64,000 nt of DNA from Bacillus sp. Cs-700. Lineage in GTDB: Bacteria; Bacillota; Bacilli; Bacillales; Guptibacillaceae. The DNA lies in the NCBI RefSeq assembly GCF_011082085.1, contig NZ_CP041063.1, forward strand, positions 62,001-126,000, written 5' to 3'. The notes under the pieces are model-generated. The model saw only the letters and a list, made by a program, of their open reading frames with translations, ran no database searches and was not told where the DNA came from. The position numbers were made by a program, and so were the translations under genes. Shown here piece after piece: positions 41,074 to 60,766 of the stretch. Each line of letters begins with the position of its first letter. Within the stretch, counting starts at the first letter, position 1.

Positions 41074-41086
41074 GGAATTAAGCGAA

Positions 41087-41101
41087 ACGGAAGCGTTTTC
41101 A
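41087..41101 (+). promoter_or_regulatory. cre-like CcpA site in the SR1 leader
   Basis: ACGGAAGCGTTTTCA agrees with the cre consensus WTGNAARCGNWWWCA at 14 of 15 positions. It starts about 8 bp after the predicted transcription start, a position suited to a CcpA roadblock. Confidence 0.6.
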
Positions 41102-41125
41102 AAACTAACTTAAGGGGTGTTGAGA

Positions 41126-41239
41126 ATGGGTATTATCATTTGCCAAACTTGCGAGAAAACAATTGATCACGTTCATGAAGAAAAGGTAAGCACGCTTTAT
41201 AGCAGATGCCCGGAATGCAATAAAAAGGATAAAAAATAA
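41126..41239 (+). CDS. sr1P: GapA-binding peptide SR1P
   Basis: ATG 41126 follows AAGGGGTG by 6 nt. The 37-residue peptide begins MGIIICQTCEKTIDHVHEEK and ends with CPECNKKDKK; it has two Cys pairs (Cys6/Cys9 and Cys28/Cys31) that could bind zinc. It resembles SR1P of B. subtilis (start MGTIVCQ, EEKVTTLY in the middle), which binds glyceraldehyde-3-phosphate dehydrogenase GapA and promotes its link with RNase J1. The C-terminal Cys pair is better formed here than in my memory of the B. subtilis peptide. Confidence 0.9.
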   Translation: MGIIICQTCEKTIDHVHEEKVSTLYSRCPECNKKDKK

Positions 41240-41252
41240 TTTTGATAAGACA

Positions 41253-41283
41253 AAGAGGCTGCCCTAGGGCAGCCTCTTATTTA
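41253..41283 (+). terminator. Shared terminator of SR1 and speA
   Basis: AAGAGGCTGCCC-TA-GGGCAGCCTCTT is a perfect palindrome (41253-41278) with a T-rich tail on both strands. It overlaps the speA stop codon. Confidence 0.9.
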
Positions 41284-55154: not shown

Positions 55155-55589
55155 ATGAATGATTTGCTTATGGTGCTCCTGATCATTGCTCCAATCAGTT
55201 TGTTATTTCATGAAGCAGGTCATACACTGGCAGCAAACATTTTCACATCCTCCAGTGTAAACCTTCATCTTGGGATCGGACCAAGAGTATTGACATTGAG
55301 GCATTCTAGAGGAGAAGTAGCCGTTAACGCCTTCTATTTTGCAGGAGGAATGACCATCAGCGCACAACCTGAAAAAGCCTATGCAAAAGTAGCAATCGCC
55401 ATAGCAGGTCCACTCGTTAACCTCATGATCGCCGCACTTACACTTCTTTTTCCGTTCCATCCATCTATCACAATCTGGGTTTTATTCTTTAACCTCTGGC
55501 TAGGCATAACCAACCTGATCCCTTTCAAACTGCTAGGAAAAGAATCAGACGGATGGACCATAGTAAAAGCGATTATCAAAAAAACTTAA
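55155..55589 (+). CDS. Small M50-type site-2 metalloprotease-like membrane protein
   Basis: The 144-residue protein has three to four hydrophobic helices with zinc motif HEAGH at residues 19-23 and a C-terminal NLIPFKLLGKESDGW (about 116-130), the LxP...DG motif that supplies the third ligand in M50 proteases. IAIAGPLVNLMIA near 83-95 is also typical. It is a minimal site-2 protease without PDZ or CBS domains. Its target is unknown. The ribosome-binding site TTTTAGGAG is 8 nt from the ATG. The tandem repeat element lies just downstream. Confidence 0.8.
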   Translation: MNDLLMVLLIIAPISLLFHEAGHTLAANIFTSSSVNLHLGIGPRVLTLRHSRGEVAVNAFYFAGGMTISAQPEKAYAKVAIAIAGPLVNLMIAALTLLFPFHPSITIWVLFFNLWLGITNLIPFKLLGKESDGWTIVKAIIKKT

Positions 55590-55644
55590 TTTCTATAGGA
55601 CAGGCAGGTTTCAAACAAAAACCATCGAAACCTATACATACTTC

Positions 55645-55762
55645 GAAAAGCGGAAGTGGGCGTTTAGACACGGCAGGCACTGGAGCCTTTTCATTTGAAC
55701 ACGTTATTTGTGTTCGGATGAAAAGGTGAAGTGACCGAGTGTCTGCCCACTGCAGCTAGCCC
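55645..55762 (+). repeat. Tandem hairpin element, copy 1
   Basis: The unit starts at GAAAAGCGG and is 118 bp. It folds into one long hairpin: GTGGGC/GCCCAC, AGACAC/GTGTCT, CACT/AGTG, CCTTTTCAT/ATGAAAAGG and GAACAC/GTGTTC, with a 7-nt terminal loop and small internal loops GTTT, GGAG and TGA. It is very similar to copy 3. Confidence 0.85.
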
Positions 55763-55880
55763 GAAAAGCGGAGACGAGCGTTTAGAAACGGAGATATTGG
55801 AGCTCTTGAACTAGAACACGCTTTTTGTGTTCTGGTGAAAGAGTGAAATATCGCAGTTTCTGCGAGTCAAAGCTAGACAA
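55763..55880 (+). repeat. Tandem hairpin element, copy 2 (diverged)
   Basis: Same start GAAAAGCGGA and 118-bp length, but the arms differ: AGAAAC/GTTTCT, ATATT/AATAT, CTCTT/AAGAG and AGAACAC/GTGTTCT. The base changes are compensatory, while the GTTTAG, GGAG and TGA joints and the AGCTAG end stay the same. Confidence 0.85.
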
Positions 55881-55999
55881 GAAAAGCGGAAGCGCCTGTT
55901 TAGACACGGCAGGCACTGGAACCTTTTCATTTGAACACGGTCTTTGTGTTCGGATGAAAAGGTGAAGTGACCGAGTGTCTGGGCGAAGCAGCTGGACAA
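55881..55999 (+). repeat. Tandem hairpin element, copy 3
   Basis: 119 bp; GAAAAGCGGAAGCGCCTG start, then helices almost identical to copy 1 (AGACAC/GTGTCT, CACT/AGTG, CCTTTTCAT/ATGAAAAGG, GAACAC/GTGTTC). The base helix is CGCC/GGCG instead of GTGGGC/GCCCAC, again keeping pairing. Confidence 0.85.
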
Positions 56000-56020
56000 G
56001 AAAAGAGAAGCGGGCACGCT
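56000..56020 (+). repeat. Tandem hairpin element, partial copy 4
   Basis: GAAAAGAGAAGCGGGCACGC repeats the first about 20 bp of the unit (one G missing) and then diverges. The remaining gap to ftsW (56021-56147) shows no other feature than a weak ribosome-binding site AGGTAGG. Confidence 0.6.
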
Positions 56021-56147
56021 TAAATCAACAGTGTTAACCGGGCTAAGAAACACTTAAAAGGTATCTAAATGAAAACGAACAACCTCAAATCGAACTGTGA
56101 ACTGATGAGGACTTCTTAAGAGAAAATAAACAGGTAGGATGACGTCT

Positions 56148-57308
56148 ATGATTAAAAAATTATTTAAGCATTATGATTACTCGCTAATCATTAGTGTGCT
56201 ACTATTGTGCGGATTTGGGCTTGTGATGGTTTATAGTGCAAGTATGGTTTGGGCTGTTATGCGTCATGAAACAAATAGTGCTTATTTTTTTAATAGGCAA
56301 ATTATTTGGCTAGCAGCTTCCCTTATTATGTTTTTACTTGCGATGATGTTTCCTTATAAAGCGTATCGGAAGTTTATTGTACCGATCCTTGGATTATCCG
56401 TCATCTCGCTTTTGCTTGTGAAAGTAATCGGCTCAACAACGAATAATGCTCAAAGTTGGATCGAAATCGGTGCGTTTAGCTTTCAGCCGTCTGAGTTTGT
56501 CAAACTTGGGTTAATTATTTACCTTGCTGCCATTTACTCCAAAAAGCAAGCTTATATTTCTAATTTTGTAAGAGGGGCTATGCCACCACTTCTCGTAATT
56601 GGATTAATTTTTGCATTAGTTGCTTCACAGCCGGACTTAGGTACAGCTATGATTATCGCATTAACTTCTGGAATCGTGATTTTCTGCTCTGGAATGAAGT
56701 GGAGTCATATTTTGGGCCTTATTATAATCGGTGGCATTGTGTTCGGCTTAGCCTGGATGTCACTATCGCCTGAACAAGCTTCAAGATTTACAGGTGCTTA
56801 TGATCCTTTTTCAGATCCAGAAGATAGCGGCTTCCATCTTATTAATTCTTATATTGCGATAGCATCAGGTGGCATTACTGGTCAGGGATTTGGACAAAGC
56901 ATTCAAAAATATGGCTTTCTCCCTGAGCCCCATACCGATTTTATTATGGCGATTGTCGCTGAAGAGTTGGGGCTGTTAGGGGTTGTATTTGTAATTGGAT
57001 TGCTAGGCTATATCGTCTTTAAAGGGTTTGTTATTGGAATTCGATGTAAGGATACTTTCGGCAGTCTGTTAGCGATTGGGATTTCTGGAATGATTGGTGT
57101 TCAGACAGCCGTTAACTTGGGTGCTATTACTGGCTGGTTACCCGTTACAGGTGTTCCGCTTCCATTCATTAGCTATGGAGGTTCATCATTAATTCTACTT
57201 ATGATATCTGTAGGGATATTAATAAACGTTTCTGCGTTTGTGAATATAAGAAAAGAACAAAAATCAGGATATGTGAACAAGGATAGCAACGTTCAAATGG
57301 AGCTTTAG
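56148..57308 (+). CDS. ftsW: Cell division peptidoglycan polymerase FtsW
   Basis: The 386-residue SEDS protein has ten hydrophobic helices. SEDS marks are VYSASMVWA near residue 28, FQPSEFVKLGLIIYLA near 110 and the conserved end VTGVPLPFISYGGSS near 325; the QPDLGTA loop near 165 is also present. It polymerises septal peptidoglycan with its partner transpeptidase. ATG 56148 lies 9 nt from AGGTAGG; the ATG at 56139 is too close. It sits before pycA as in B. subtilis (ylaO), which favours FtsW over RodA or SpoVE. Confidence 0.92.
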   Translation: MIKKLFKHYDYSLIISVLLLCGFGLVMVYSASMVWAVMRHETNSAYFFNRQIIWLAASLIMFLLAMMFPYKAYRKFIVPILGLSVISLLLVKVIGSTTNNAQSWIEIGAFSFQPSEFVKLGLIIYLAAIYSKKQAYISNFVRGAMPPLLVIGLIFALVASQPDLGTAMIIALTSGIVIFCSGMKWSHILGLIIIGGIVFGLAWMSLSPEQASRFTGAYDPFSDPEDSGFHLINSYIAIASGGITGQGFGQSIQKYGFLPEPHTDFIMAIVAEELGLLGVVFVIGLLGYIVFKGFVIGIRCKDTFGSLLAIGISGMIGVQTAVNLGAITGWLPVTGVPLPFISYGGSSLILLMISVGILINVSAFVNIRKEQKSGYVNKDSNVQMEL

Positions 57309-57325: not shown

Positions 57326-60300
57326 ATGACCGCTATTTCAAAAATTCTAGTCGCCAACCGAGGAGAAATCGCAATTCGTATTTTTCGTGCCTGTACGGAG
57401 TTAAATATCCGGACAGTCGCGATCTATTCAAAAGAAGACAGTGGTTCTTATCATCGATATAAAGCAGATGAAGCTTATCTTGTTGGAGAAGATAAGAAGC
57501 CGATCGATGCTTATCTTGACATTGAGGGAATTATTGAAATTGCCAAAGCAAATAACATCGATGCGATCCATCCTGGCTATGGTTTTCTTTCTGAAAACCT
57601 TCAGTTCGCTAAACGCTGTGAAGAAGAAGGCATCATATTTATTGGTCCAGAGCTTGAACACCTCAGAATGTTTGGAGATAAAGTGGAGGCGAGAAAGCAA
57701 GCCATTCTTGCGGGTCTTCCTGTTATCCCTGGAACAGATGGCCCGGTGGAAGGACTAGATGAAGTAAAGGCTTTTGCTGATGAAAATGGCTATCCTCTGA
57801 TGATAAAAGCTGCTCTTGGTGGCGGTGGAAGAGGAATGCGAATTGTTCGAAGTCAGGAAGCGCTGGCGGATGCATACGATCGTGCGAAATCAGAAGCGAA
57901 AGCAGCTTTTGGGGCCGATGATATTTATGTGGAGAAGTTTGTCGAGAATCCTAAGCACATTGAAGTTCAAATTCTTGGAGATAAACATGGAAATACGATT
58001 CATCTCTATGAAAGAGACTGCTCTGTCCAACGTCGTCATCAAAAAGTTGTTGAAGTAGCACCAAGCGTATCTCTTAGTGAGGATGCTAGAAGAGAGATAT
58101 GTGAAGCTGCAGTTAAGCTGATGGAAAATGTACAGTACGTTAACGCAGGTACAGTAGAATTTCTAGTTAATCAAAGCGGTGAGTTTTATTTTATAGAAGT
58201 AAATCCCCGCGTGCAGGTTGAACATACAATTACAGAAATGATTACGGGAATCGACATTGTGCAATCACAAATAATGATTGCAGAAGGTGAAAATATTCAT
58301 GGTGAGCGCCTCGGTATTCCAGAGCAAGAGGCCATCGACTGTCACGGATATGCCATTCAATGTCGTGTTACAACAGAAGATCCGGAGAACAACTTTATGC
58401 CAGACACCGGAAAGCTTATGGCTTATCGCTCAGGTGGTGGCTTTGGCGTTCGTCTGGATGCAGGGAATGCTTACCAGGGCGCGGTTATTACGCCGTACTA
58501 TGATTCATTACTTGTTAAGCTTTCGACCTGGGCACTAAGCTTTGACCATGCTTCATCTAAAATGGTCAGAAATTTAAAAGAATTCCGGATTAGAGGAATT
58601 AAAACAAATATTGCTTTCCTTGAAAATGTAATGAAACACGAGAATTTCCGATCAGGTGTTTATGATACGTCATTCATAGATTCATCACCAGAGTTGTTTG
58701 TGTTTCCAAAGCGAAAGGACCGCGGAACGAAGATGCTTTCGTACATTGGGAATATTACGGTTAATGGATTTCCTGGTCTTGATAAAAAGAAAAAACCAAC
58801 ATTTCCAAAAAGAAGGGTGCCACATTTAAAATACAGTGAAGAAATCCCTCGAGGTACGAAGCAAATTCTTGATGAAGAAGGGGCAGAGGGACTTGTACAA
58901 TGGGTGAAAGAGCAGAAGAAGACTTTGCTCACCGACACGACATTCCGAGATGGGCATCAATCGCTCCTCGCCACAAGAATGCGTACAACAGATTTACTTC
59001 ACATTGCAGGTCCAACAGCGAGAATGATGCCGAATTTGTTTTCAATGGAAATGTGGGGCGGTGCAACGTTTGATGTTTCTCTCCGCTACTTAAAAGAAGA
59101 TCCGTGGGATCGTTTAATAAAATTGAGAAAGCAAGTGCCGAACGTCATGTTCCAAATGTTACTCCGCGCTTCGAATGCCGTCGGTTATAAGAATTATCCA
59201 GATAACTTAATTCGTGAATTTGTACAAAAGTCTGCTGATGCTGGTATTGACGTATTCCGTATATTTGATAGTTTGAACTGGGTGGAAGGTATGACAAAGG
59301 CCATCGAGGCAGTGCGTGAAACAGGGAAGATTGCTGAAGCATCGATTTGTTATACAGGGGATATCTCTGATCCCTCTAAATCAAAATACAACTTAACTTA
59401 TTATCAGGAGCTTGCTAAAGAGTTAGAACAAGCAGGAGCACATATTCTTGGTATAAAGGACATGGCTGGACTTTTGAAACCACATGCCGCATATGAACTC
59501 GTTTCAACTTTAAAGGAAACAGTCTCAATCCCAATCCACCTTCATACGCATGATACGAGCGGTAACGGAATCTATACATACGCAAAAGCCATTGAGGCAG
59601 GCGTAGATATTGTAGATGTAGCAGTAAGCTCTATGGCGGGGTTAACATCTCAACCAAGTGCCAATTCCTTGTATTATGCACTTGATGGTTCAGACAGAAA
59701 GCCGGACATCTATATCAATGCGCTAGAGCAATTGTCTCATTACTGGGAGGATACTCGAAAATATTATAGCGGGTTTGAAAGTGGCATGACAGCTCCGCAC
59801 ACTGAAGTGTACGAGCATGAAATGCCAGGCGGGCAATATAGTAACCTTCAACAGCAAGCAAAAGGTGTTGGTTTAGGAGAACGCTGGGATGAAGTTAAGC
59901 GGATGTACCGAAGAGTTAATGAAATGTTTGGTGATATTGTAAAAGTAACCCCTTCTTCAAAAGTGGTCGGAGATATGGCGCTATACATGGTCCAAAATAA
60001 CTTAACTGAAGACGACGTTTATGAACGTGGTGAAACGCTTGATTTTCCTGATTCTGTAGTTGAGCTATTCCAGGGTTACCTTGGTCAGCCTTATCAAGGA
60101 TTCCCAAAAGAACTACAGCAAATTATTCTTAAAGGGAGAGAGCCCATTACGACAAGGCCGGGTGAACTGCTCGAACCTGTGAATTTTACAGATTTGAAAG
60201 AGACTCTTTACCACAAACTAAATCGTCAAGTCACGAGCCATGATCTTATCTCTTACGCTCTCTATCCAAAAGTCTATCTAGAGTATGAAGAGGTTCAAGA

Positions 60301-60766
60301 AATGTTTGGTGACGTATCTGTTCTTGATACGCCAACCTTCCTCTATGGCATGCGTTTAGGTGAAGAAGTTGAAGTAGAGATTGAACAAGGTAAAACATTG
60401 ATTGTAAAACTAGTATCCATCGGAGAGCCAAACATAGAAGGAAAGCGTACGCTTTACTTTGAGTTGAATGGTCAGCCTCGTGAAGTAGTTATTAAAGATG
60501 AAAATATTAAAACTGCTATAGCCGCTAAACCAAAAGCAGATCGCGCTAATCCTAACCACATTGGTGCAACAATGCCTGGAACAGTGATCAAGGTACTTGT
60601 TGATAAAGGAGAGAGAGTAAACAAAGGCGATCATCTAATGATTACAGAAGCGATGAAAATGGAAACAACTGTTCAAGCTCCTCGAAGTGGGGTTGTGGAA
60701 CATATCCATGTAGCAAATGGTGAGGGTATTGAATCAGGAGATCTATTGTTAGAAATGAACGAATGA
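57326..60766 (+). CDS. pycA: Pyruvate carboxylase
   Basis: The 1146-residue single-chain enzyme carboxylates pyruvate to oxaloacetate. Order of domains: biotin carboxylase (about 1-460, with ATP-grasp GGGGRGMR near 162), carboxyltransferase (about 530-810, starting TDTTFRDGHQSLLATRMRT), allosteric linker, and C-terminal biotinyl domain with biotinylated Lys1111 in EAMKMET. It feeds the citrate cycle opposite to pdhABCD. AAGGAGG precedes the ATG. In B. subtilis its activity is stimulated by apo-DarB, whose gene is also in this window. Confidence 0.97.
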   Translation: MTAISKILVANRGEIAIRIFRACTELNIRTVAIYSKEDSGSYHRYKADEAYLVGEDKKPIDAYLDIEGIIEIAKANNIDAIHPGYGFLSENLQFAKRCEEEGIIFIGPELEHLRMFGDKVEARKQAILAGLPVIPGTDGPVEGLDEVKAFADENGYPLMIKAALGGGGRGMRIVRSQEALADAYDRAKSEAKAAFGADDIYVEKFVENPKHIEVQILGDKHGNTIHLYERDCSVQRRHQKVVEVAPSVSLSEDARREICEAAVKLMENVQYVNAGTVEFLVNQSGEFYFIEVNPRVQVEHTITEMITGIDIVQSQIMIAEGENIHGERLGIPEQEAIDCHGYAIQCRVTTEDPENNFMPDTGKLMAYRSGGGFGVRLDAGNAYQGAVITPYYDSLLVKLSTWALSFDHASSKMVRNLKEFRIRGIKTNIAFLENVMKHENFRSGVYDTSFIDSSPELFVFPKRKDRGTKMLSYIGNITVNGFPGLDKKKKPTFPKRRVPHLKYSEEIPRGTKQILDEEGAEGLVQWVKEQKKTLLTDTTFRDGHQSLLATRMRTTDLLHIAGPTARMMPNLFSMEMWGGATFDVSLRYLKEDPWDRLIKLRKQVPNVMFQMLLRASNAVGYKNYPDNLIREFVQKSADAGIDVFRIFDSLNWVEGMTKAIEAVRETGKIAEASICYTGDISDPSKSKYNLTYYQELAKELEQAGAHILGIKDMAGLLKPHAAYELVSTLKETVSIPIHLHTHDTSGNGIYTYAKAIEAGVDIVDVAVSSMAGLTSQPSANSLYYALDGSDRKPDIYINALEQLSHYWEDTRKYYSGFESGMTAPHTEVYEHEMPGGQYSNLQQQAKGVGLGERWDEVKRMYRRVNEMFGDIVKVTPSSKVVGDMALYMVQNNLTEDDVYERGETLDFPDSVVELFQGYLGQPYQGFPKELQQIILKGREPITTRPGELLEPVNFTDLKETLYHKLNRQVTSHDLISYALYPKVYLEYEEVQEMFGDVSVLDTPTFLYGMRLGEEVEVEIEQGKTLIVKLVSIGEPNIEGKRTLYFELNGQPREVVIKDENIKTAIAAKPKADRANPNHIGATMPGTVIKVLVDKGERVNKGDHLMITEAMKMETTVQAPRSGVVEHIHVANGEGIESGDLLLEMNE

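Follow-up and report, generated by a model that had tools for sequence, protein, structure and literature searches.

The window analysed here, a 64,000-nucleotide stretch of the Bacillus sp. Cs-700 genome, harbors a tandem repeat array between an M50-like ORF of 144 aa (55155..55589) and an ftsW-like ORF (56139..57308), which is followed by a pycA-like ORF (57326..60766); all three ORFs lie on the forward strand and bear the names given in the original prediction. By TRF, the array spans 55645-56012, with a period of 119, 3.1 copies, 71% matches and a score of 398. TRF, folding, a covariance model and typing together delimit, also on the forward strand, unit 1 (type A, 55645..55762), unit 2 (type B, 55763..55880) and unit 3 (type A, 55881..55999, including its linker), i.e., units of 118, 118 and 119 bp, after which a fourth unit is reduced to a decayed 5' arm (56000..56026, end approximate) that looks type C-like by eye. 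The array is preceded by a forward-strand leader (55590..55644), which ends in CATACTTC and joins the array at GAAAAG. When relatives are compared, this stretch 5' of ftsW, ACAGGCAGGTTT...ATCGAA..CTATACATACTTC, is conserved whether or not a species has the array, and it may represent a separate leader element.

The three tandem units and partial fourth described in the original prediction are thus found both by TRF and in the sequence, and so is the near-identity of copies 1 and 3 (89% over 113 nt) as against the diverged copy 2 (65-71% alike to units 1 and 3 over 89 nt). The stacked helices noted for every copy can be traced as well. Units 1, 2 and 3 fold as RNA at -60.8, -45.5 and -54.4 kcal/mol, with z scores of -7.7, -6.0 and -5.8, and none of 200 dinucleotide shuffles of each unit folds as well. 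Changes on both sides of a helix are present in the sequence as predicted, namely AGACAC/GTGTCT versus AGAAAC/GTTTCT, CACT/AGTG versus ATATT/AATAT, CCTTTTCAT/ATGAAAAGG versus CTCTT/AAGAG, and GTGGGC/GCCCAC versus CGCC/GGCG. No Rfam family scored above its curated threshold over the window array, nor over units at 14 loci from several genera; identity with a known RNA family was set aside, the Rfam matches being below threshold only, such as those to miRNA families. Carriage by a phage or plasmid was likewise set aside, the 366-bp array having no match there. At a distance from the array, at 41077-41283 of the window, a match to the SR1 antisense sRNA family reaches 57.2 bits, above the gathering score.

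The window units are part of a family with dispersed copies. When the Cs-700 genome was searched at the DNA level, 64 matches at E<=10 were obtained, from which 30 loci were fetched; these contained 73 near-full units, thinned to 52 and aligned together with window unit 1, and the covariance model R1 was built from the resulting 53 Cs-700 units. The original prediction had proposed a covariance-model search and a count of copies, and both point to a large family: the Cs-700 genome yields 103 R1 matches at E<=0.01, in about 40 head-to-tail arrays, and 209 of 299 sampled genomes of the order, covering 82 of 116 genera, have matches at E<=1e-4. Copy numbers in this order-wide scan are lower bounds because stricter filters were applied and at most 12 candidates were scored per genome; four genomes of the order searched more fully yielded 113, 73, 72 and 63 matches. 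At E<=0.001, all 15 genomes of the family sample carry R1 matches: Cs-700 has 100, the 13 further members of its genus have 47-102 each, and the single sister-genus genome has three. When 149 genomes were drawn from across the phylum, none but Cs-700 matched; among the genomes listed, 147 of the 148 others lie outside the order and one, without a match, lies within it. A pattern scan of named genomes found at least 119 stretches, and the 80 of them listed include Pseudalkalibacillus, Alkalihalobacillus, Bacillus, Sporosarcina, Planococcus, Planomicrobium, Mesobacillus, Neobacillus and Alteribacillus; one record labelled Chryseobacterium is probably mislabelled. In the open-licence literature searched, we met no description of the family, which may be in print elsewhere; sequence words of the unit turn up in 24 papers listed there, most of which look unrelated by their titles.

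Each unit forms one long imperfect hairpin and is, as a whole, an imperfect inverted repeat, so that it carries terminal inverted repeats. The 5' foot is nearly fixed as GAAA.G, mostly GAAAAGC; the 3' end CT.GA and motifs in the internal loop and apex are also conserved, and in 81 units of other families the conserved unpaired parts are the GAAA.G foot, a GG/GA internal loop, two T residues near the apex and the CT.GA end. Among 96 full units of Cs-700, simple motifs assign 54 to type A, 22 to type B and 15 to type C, and the same calls make five of the 96 chimeric, with arms of different types. RNAalifold predicts 22 pairs for the 53 aligned units, 15 of which show double-sided changes. Covariation was further assessed in three other families, on 40 stretches with 88 matches that represent 81 distinct units; 94.7% of the cells in these units pair, and the covariation score is 0.713, compared with 0.065-0.219 for slid-partner controls and with none of 500 shuffles reaching that value, in an alignment that was fitted to the covariance model and is to that extent biased in favor of covariation. 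The number of further pair types in the 81 units does not exceed that of shuffles (105 of 500 as high). The proposal that the structure is under selection is borne out by this strong covariation in three other families, and significant covariation is therefore present in an alignment wider than the three window copies.

The two strands do not fold equally well. Folded as RNA, the GAAAAGC strand exceeds its complement in stability in 92 of 96 Cs-700 units (by a mean of 9.2 kcal/mol), and folded as DNA in 94 of 96; in other families, it is the more stable strand as RNA in 70 of 79 units (mean 4.6 kcal/mol). At paired columns, G-U outnumbers A-C by 85:23 in type A, 28:1 in type B and 13:2 in type C, with a weaker excess of 27:16 in other families. 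Taken together, the difference in stability and the G-U excess argue that selection acts on one strand, either as RNA or as single-stranded DNA, although a mutational strand bias could add to the excess of G-U over A-C. Within arrays, like types adjoin each other 20 times out of 57, against a shuffled mean of 25.8 (220 of 5000 shuffles as low), a weak signal of alternation.

The placement of the copies was examined for 40 Cs-700 arrays, identified in the stretches covering the R1 loci by profile search together with simple ORF calling. If only co-directional ORFs of 80 aa or more are considered, 13 of these arrays start within -8 to +9 nt of a stop codon; the number rises to about 18 once shorter or missed ORFs are counted by eye, and by the automatic measure, which ignores undetected partial tails, none of the 40 ends at such a codon on its 3' side. 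TAA or TAG can be found in the last 8 nt before the foot in 21 of 34 non-rRNA arrays, versus 22.5% of intergenic 8-mers, an excess due in part to stop codons. Six Cs-700 arrays are located, by eye, in 23S-5S spacers after the 23S end, and a seventh of the eight rRNA operons has a shortened copy (L254). The last element of many arrays is a partial 5' arm, which often stops near the hairpin apex. In relatives, 30 rRNA-spacer loci were compared, in six of which the spacer was not recognised by its motif; G095 has both full copies and copies with internal deletions, and a stub is present in G175 and G200. A tiny AAAAGCGTAAGCTTT hairpin occurs in 23S-5S spacers (L230, L246, L251 and others; G200, G175) where G095 has a full unit, and it may be a collapsed copy of the unit. 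Other short repeats were seen beside arrays. A second repeat type, consisting of short AT-rich runs with CGCGGAATT / TTCCGCGA, adjoins the 3' ends of several arrays (flanks of L002, L009 and L081/L008 (G0a:45557) in G000; L136 in G010), and a TTTTGGCCAATAAATC-like tandem run follows the array end in two related species (L118 in G009, L138 in G010).

Such a placement brings to mind a functional RNA, in which sense hairpins in 3' untranslated regions or spacers would stabilise or process transcripts. That the folding strand is the sense strand where an array follows a gene, that array starts and not array ends meet co-directional stop codons, and that the rRNA-spacer copies follow the 23S end are all in keeping with this explanation; we nevertheless consider it unlikely. 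Internally deleted rRNA copies persist, the arrays turn over between close relatives, which have empty sites and between zero and six full units at one and the same site, and many arrays are not sense to the gene upstream: this holds for 35 of the 48 lagging arrays of three other families and for 18 of 27 in Cs-700, the latter by an automatic call in which at least three of the 18 do follow a missed sense ORF.

The turnover can be seen at the window site, which was read in all 15 genomes of the family sample, one locus (G006) ending at a contig edge. An array or a remnant of it, with the same 5' junction, can be found in 12 of 14 genus members; at this junction ACTTC is joined to GAAAAG, with ACTTA in place of ACTTC in one genome. 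The site is without an array in G002, in G013 and in the sister genus. Each species read has a content of its own; G010, at one end of the range, has a stub of about 20 nt, and G009, at the other, has six full units plus a partial one. Most simply, the window array arose once, before the 12 of 14 sampled genus species diverged, a reading that does not draw on a tree. Nine Cs-700 sites in a shared stretch give a similar picture: all are occupied in G009 and G010, three of them in G010 by partial units or a stub, and in G002, a more distant relative, one is filled, six are clearly empty, and the other two, aligned on one side only or poorly, have no detected unit. By the same reading, the window array has no necessary role for ftsW. 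The original idea of a structured RNA that buffers the ftsW-pycA transcripts is not supported by this comparison, in which the array is missing from two of 14 genus species, is a stub or partial in others and has six full units in one. The alternative put forward with it, a mobile hairpin of REP/MITE-like kind, agrees with the dispersal, the empty sites and the turnover of content, except that membership of REP proper is not supported by the hallmarks tested.

Arrays are oriented with respect to replication. GC skew and gene strand within the sampled stretches, rather than a mapped origin, served to define fork direction. Of 153 non-rRNA arrays assigned in four genomes, 129 run opposite to replication, i.e., in the lagging orientation: 27 lagging and 7 leading in Cs-700 (27/34, P = 8e-4), 68 and 9 in G126 (68/77, P = 2.4e-12), 17 and 3 in G114 (17/20, P = 0.003), and 17 and 5 in G023 (17/22, P = 0.02). 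These counts leave out arrays near the origin or terminus (six in G126, three in G114), and those for genomes other than Cs-700 use 148 of the best 150 of 321 matches, two from G092 being dropped because the sampled stretches did not give its replication direction. Six Cs-700 rRNA-spacer copies, set aside from the count, are all leading. The 57 arrays formed by the 88 matches in the 40 stretches of three other families comprise 48 lagging and 9 leading ones. Since arrays run opposite to replication, the foldable strand usually lies on the leading-strand template. Arrays in the leading orientation, which retention predicts to be shorter, show a trend in that direction that is not significant, with P = 0.20 in Cs-700, 0.16 in the others and 0.07 combined; only with the six rRNA copies added does the Cs-700 comparison give P = 0.004.

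Orientation relative to neighboring genes was compared for the Cs-700 arrays together with the 57 from the 40 stretches. Where both neighbors are leading-strand genes, 44 of 54 arrays run opposite to replication and are hence antisense; where both are lagging-strand genes, all six run opposite to replication and are hence sense (P = 1.6e-4). As a rule based on gene sense would give the reverse for the latter, replication predicts orientation better than gene sense does. The window array belongs to the minority of 10 out of 54 arrays between leading-strand genes that are both sense and leading.

The prevailing orientation would also fit arrays of terminators, whose complement strand, with a hairpin and T4, would halt transcription running on from leading-strand genes. 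Judged by eye, many arrays have a terminator on one side and the next promoter or stop codon on the other, and both terminator-like matches around the window array are inside it, on the complement strand. These two matches are, however, not above shuffles (mean 2.2), and it is the complement that folds worse, by the same mean of 9.2 kcal/mol, selection keeping the pairing of the other strand; a role as terminators is accordingly very improbable.

With regard to the means of mobility, no mobilising enzyme was found among the RAYT/Y1 and RVT_1 genes, which were those searched for. REP-type elements are moved by RAYT/IS200 Y1 transposases acting on single-stranded hairpins at replication forks, and the hairpin structure, the replication polarity and the two RAYT-like Y1 transposase genes of Cs-700 would all suit such a mover. 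The two genes (L077 1246-1863 and L078 1282-1863) have no units nearby, and their best NCBIfam match is REP_Tyr_transpos, at 58.3 and 77.4 bits, below the 80-bit cut-off. RAYT matches occur in all 12 genomes of the Cs-700 family in the order sample. Over the 299 genomes, element and RAYT are found together in 136, the element only in 73, RAYT only in 34 and neither in 56, an association with an odds ratio of 3.07 (P = 1.4e-5) when kinship is ignored. Nearby units were sought at 14 RAYT and four RVT_1 loci. The presence of a REP-associated transposase, raised in the original prediction, holds for the genes themselves; none of the 14 RAYT loci has a unit in flanks of up to 1.5 kb. Moreover, Y1_Tnp has no match at E<=0.001 in 12 of 18 element-rich genomes chosen as RAYT-less; a GTAG or GT[AG]G foot is absent from the genus and from three other families, the consensus being GAAA.G / CT.GA; and the folding strand lies on the leading-strand template, the reverse of what would result if that strand were inserted into the lagging-strand template. 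Mobilisation by RAYT therefore appears decidedly unlikely.

Retroposition, with the nascent lagging strand priming a reverse transcriptase that copies a transcript, would account for the polarity, for a 5' foot that is fixed and for a 3' partial unit that is ragged. It is hardly credible all the same, given that 10 of the 11 genus members sampled, Cs-700 included, have no RVT_1 match at E<=1e-10 though they are element-rich, a result that also speaks against a group II intron or other retroelement, that element and reverse transcriptase show no association over the 299 genomes (odds ratio 0.80, P = 0.45), and that the strand serving as RNA template would be the worse-folding one. As for target duplication, linker ends equal the last 3 nt of the 5' flank in 12 of 68 Cs-700 linkers, above chance (shuffled mean 3.1), and in none of 63 linkers in two relatives (shuffled mean 1.6).

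The family is real, structured and order-wide, and it behaves as mobile elements do; the window array is an ordinary member in the less common orientation. The explanation we favor, and regard as reasonably probable, is that the window units form one array of a non-coding mobile hairpin element of the host's order, whose foldable strand is retained on the leading-strand template. The element would be small and non-autonomous, its mobility being read from comparisons between species. Copies would enter AT-rich intergenic sites, in Cs-700 commonly just after a stop codon or the 23S rRNA end, and would then multiply, shrink and exchange arms within arrays; mobility would be provided in trans by some factor acting on the hairpin. 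The polarity would arise from retention. In sedentary integrons, the foldable attC strand is reported on the leading-strand template in 25 of 30 cases, larger arrays being so oriented (PMC5371416), and it is this precedent, together with the same template bias here, that favors retention. A foldable strand on the leading-strand template would seldom be single-stranded, so that copies survive, and in the opposite orientation, with the hairpin on the lagging-strand template, copies would be lost, as in sedentary integron arrays.

It can also be speculated, although we think it rather doubtful, that the family represents a new kind of mobile hairpin, with one strand of conserved fold and an order-wide spread involving neither a Y1 transposase nor a reverse transcriptase. 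Such copies might arise if the nascent lagging strand switched template, driven by microhomology, at A-rich sites bearing hairpins, and their orientation would record fork direction. At two sites, the G002 host sequence is similar to the foot of the first unit, which is no more than suggestive of such switching.

If the favored explanation of a mobile hairpin retained by strand is true, a covarying hairpin unnamed by RNA family libraries is present, in a few to about 100 copies, in 82 of the 116 genera sampled from a well-studied order, at gene 3' ends, promoter-proximal spacers and rRNA spacers. The family would then offer a natural, many-times repeated test of the effect of replication direction on the survival of hairpin DNA, as well as a search target for a mobilising activity.

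Among known systems, the family is kin in kind to REP and MITE elements, yet it lacks the REP hallmarks that were tested. As with REP/BIME and RAYT, many dispersed intergenic hairpins can be found per genome, in arrays, with the hairpin under selection. However, a REP unit measures 20-40 bp versus about 118 bp here, the GTAG foot and the linkage to RAYT are missing, and BIMEs are described as alternating (PMC2817692), in contrast to the head-to-tail arrays of the present family. GTAG repeats are reported from Proteobacteria, Cyanobacteria, Chloroflexi and the PVC group (PMC3733652). MITE-like repeats such as RUP, ERIC, YPAL and bcr1 of the B. cereus group are, by description, likewise short, non-coding and mostly intergenic; RUP is given as 107 bp and targets TA sites, and YPAL as 168 bp, inserting at or near dyad symmetries (PMC2229807). 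The present family differs from them in its tandem arrays of diverged types, its order-wide spread and its replication polarity, and in that no autonomous partner was found at the 14 RAYT and four RVT_1 loci and target duplication is not established. Bhal-1, Bant-1 and other stem-loop families described in a 2008 survey (PMC2267715) are also short intergenic repeats of Bacillus genomes; they are set apart here by description only, the models given being 72-76 bp. The attC arrays of sedentary integrons, as described in PMC5371416, differ in that our units are dispersed over about 40 places, with no cassettes noticed; in both systems, sites that fold in one strand are gathered in arrays and the foldable strand lies mostly on the leading-strand template.
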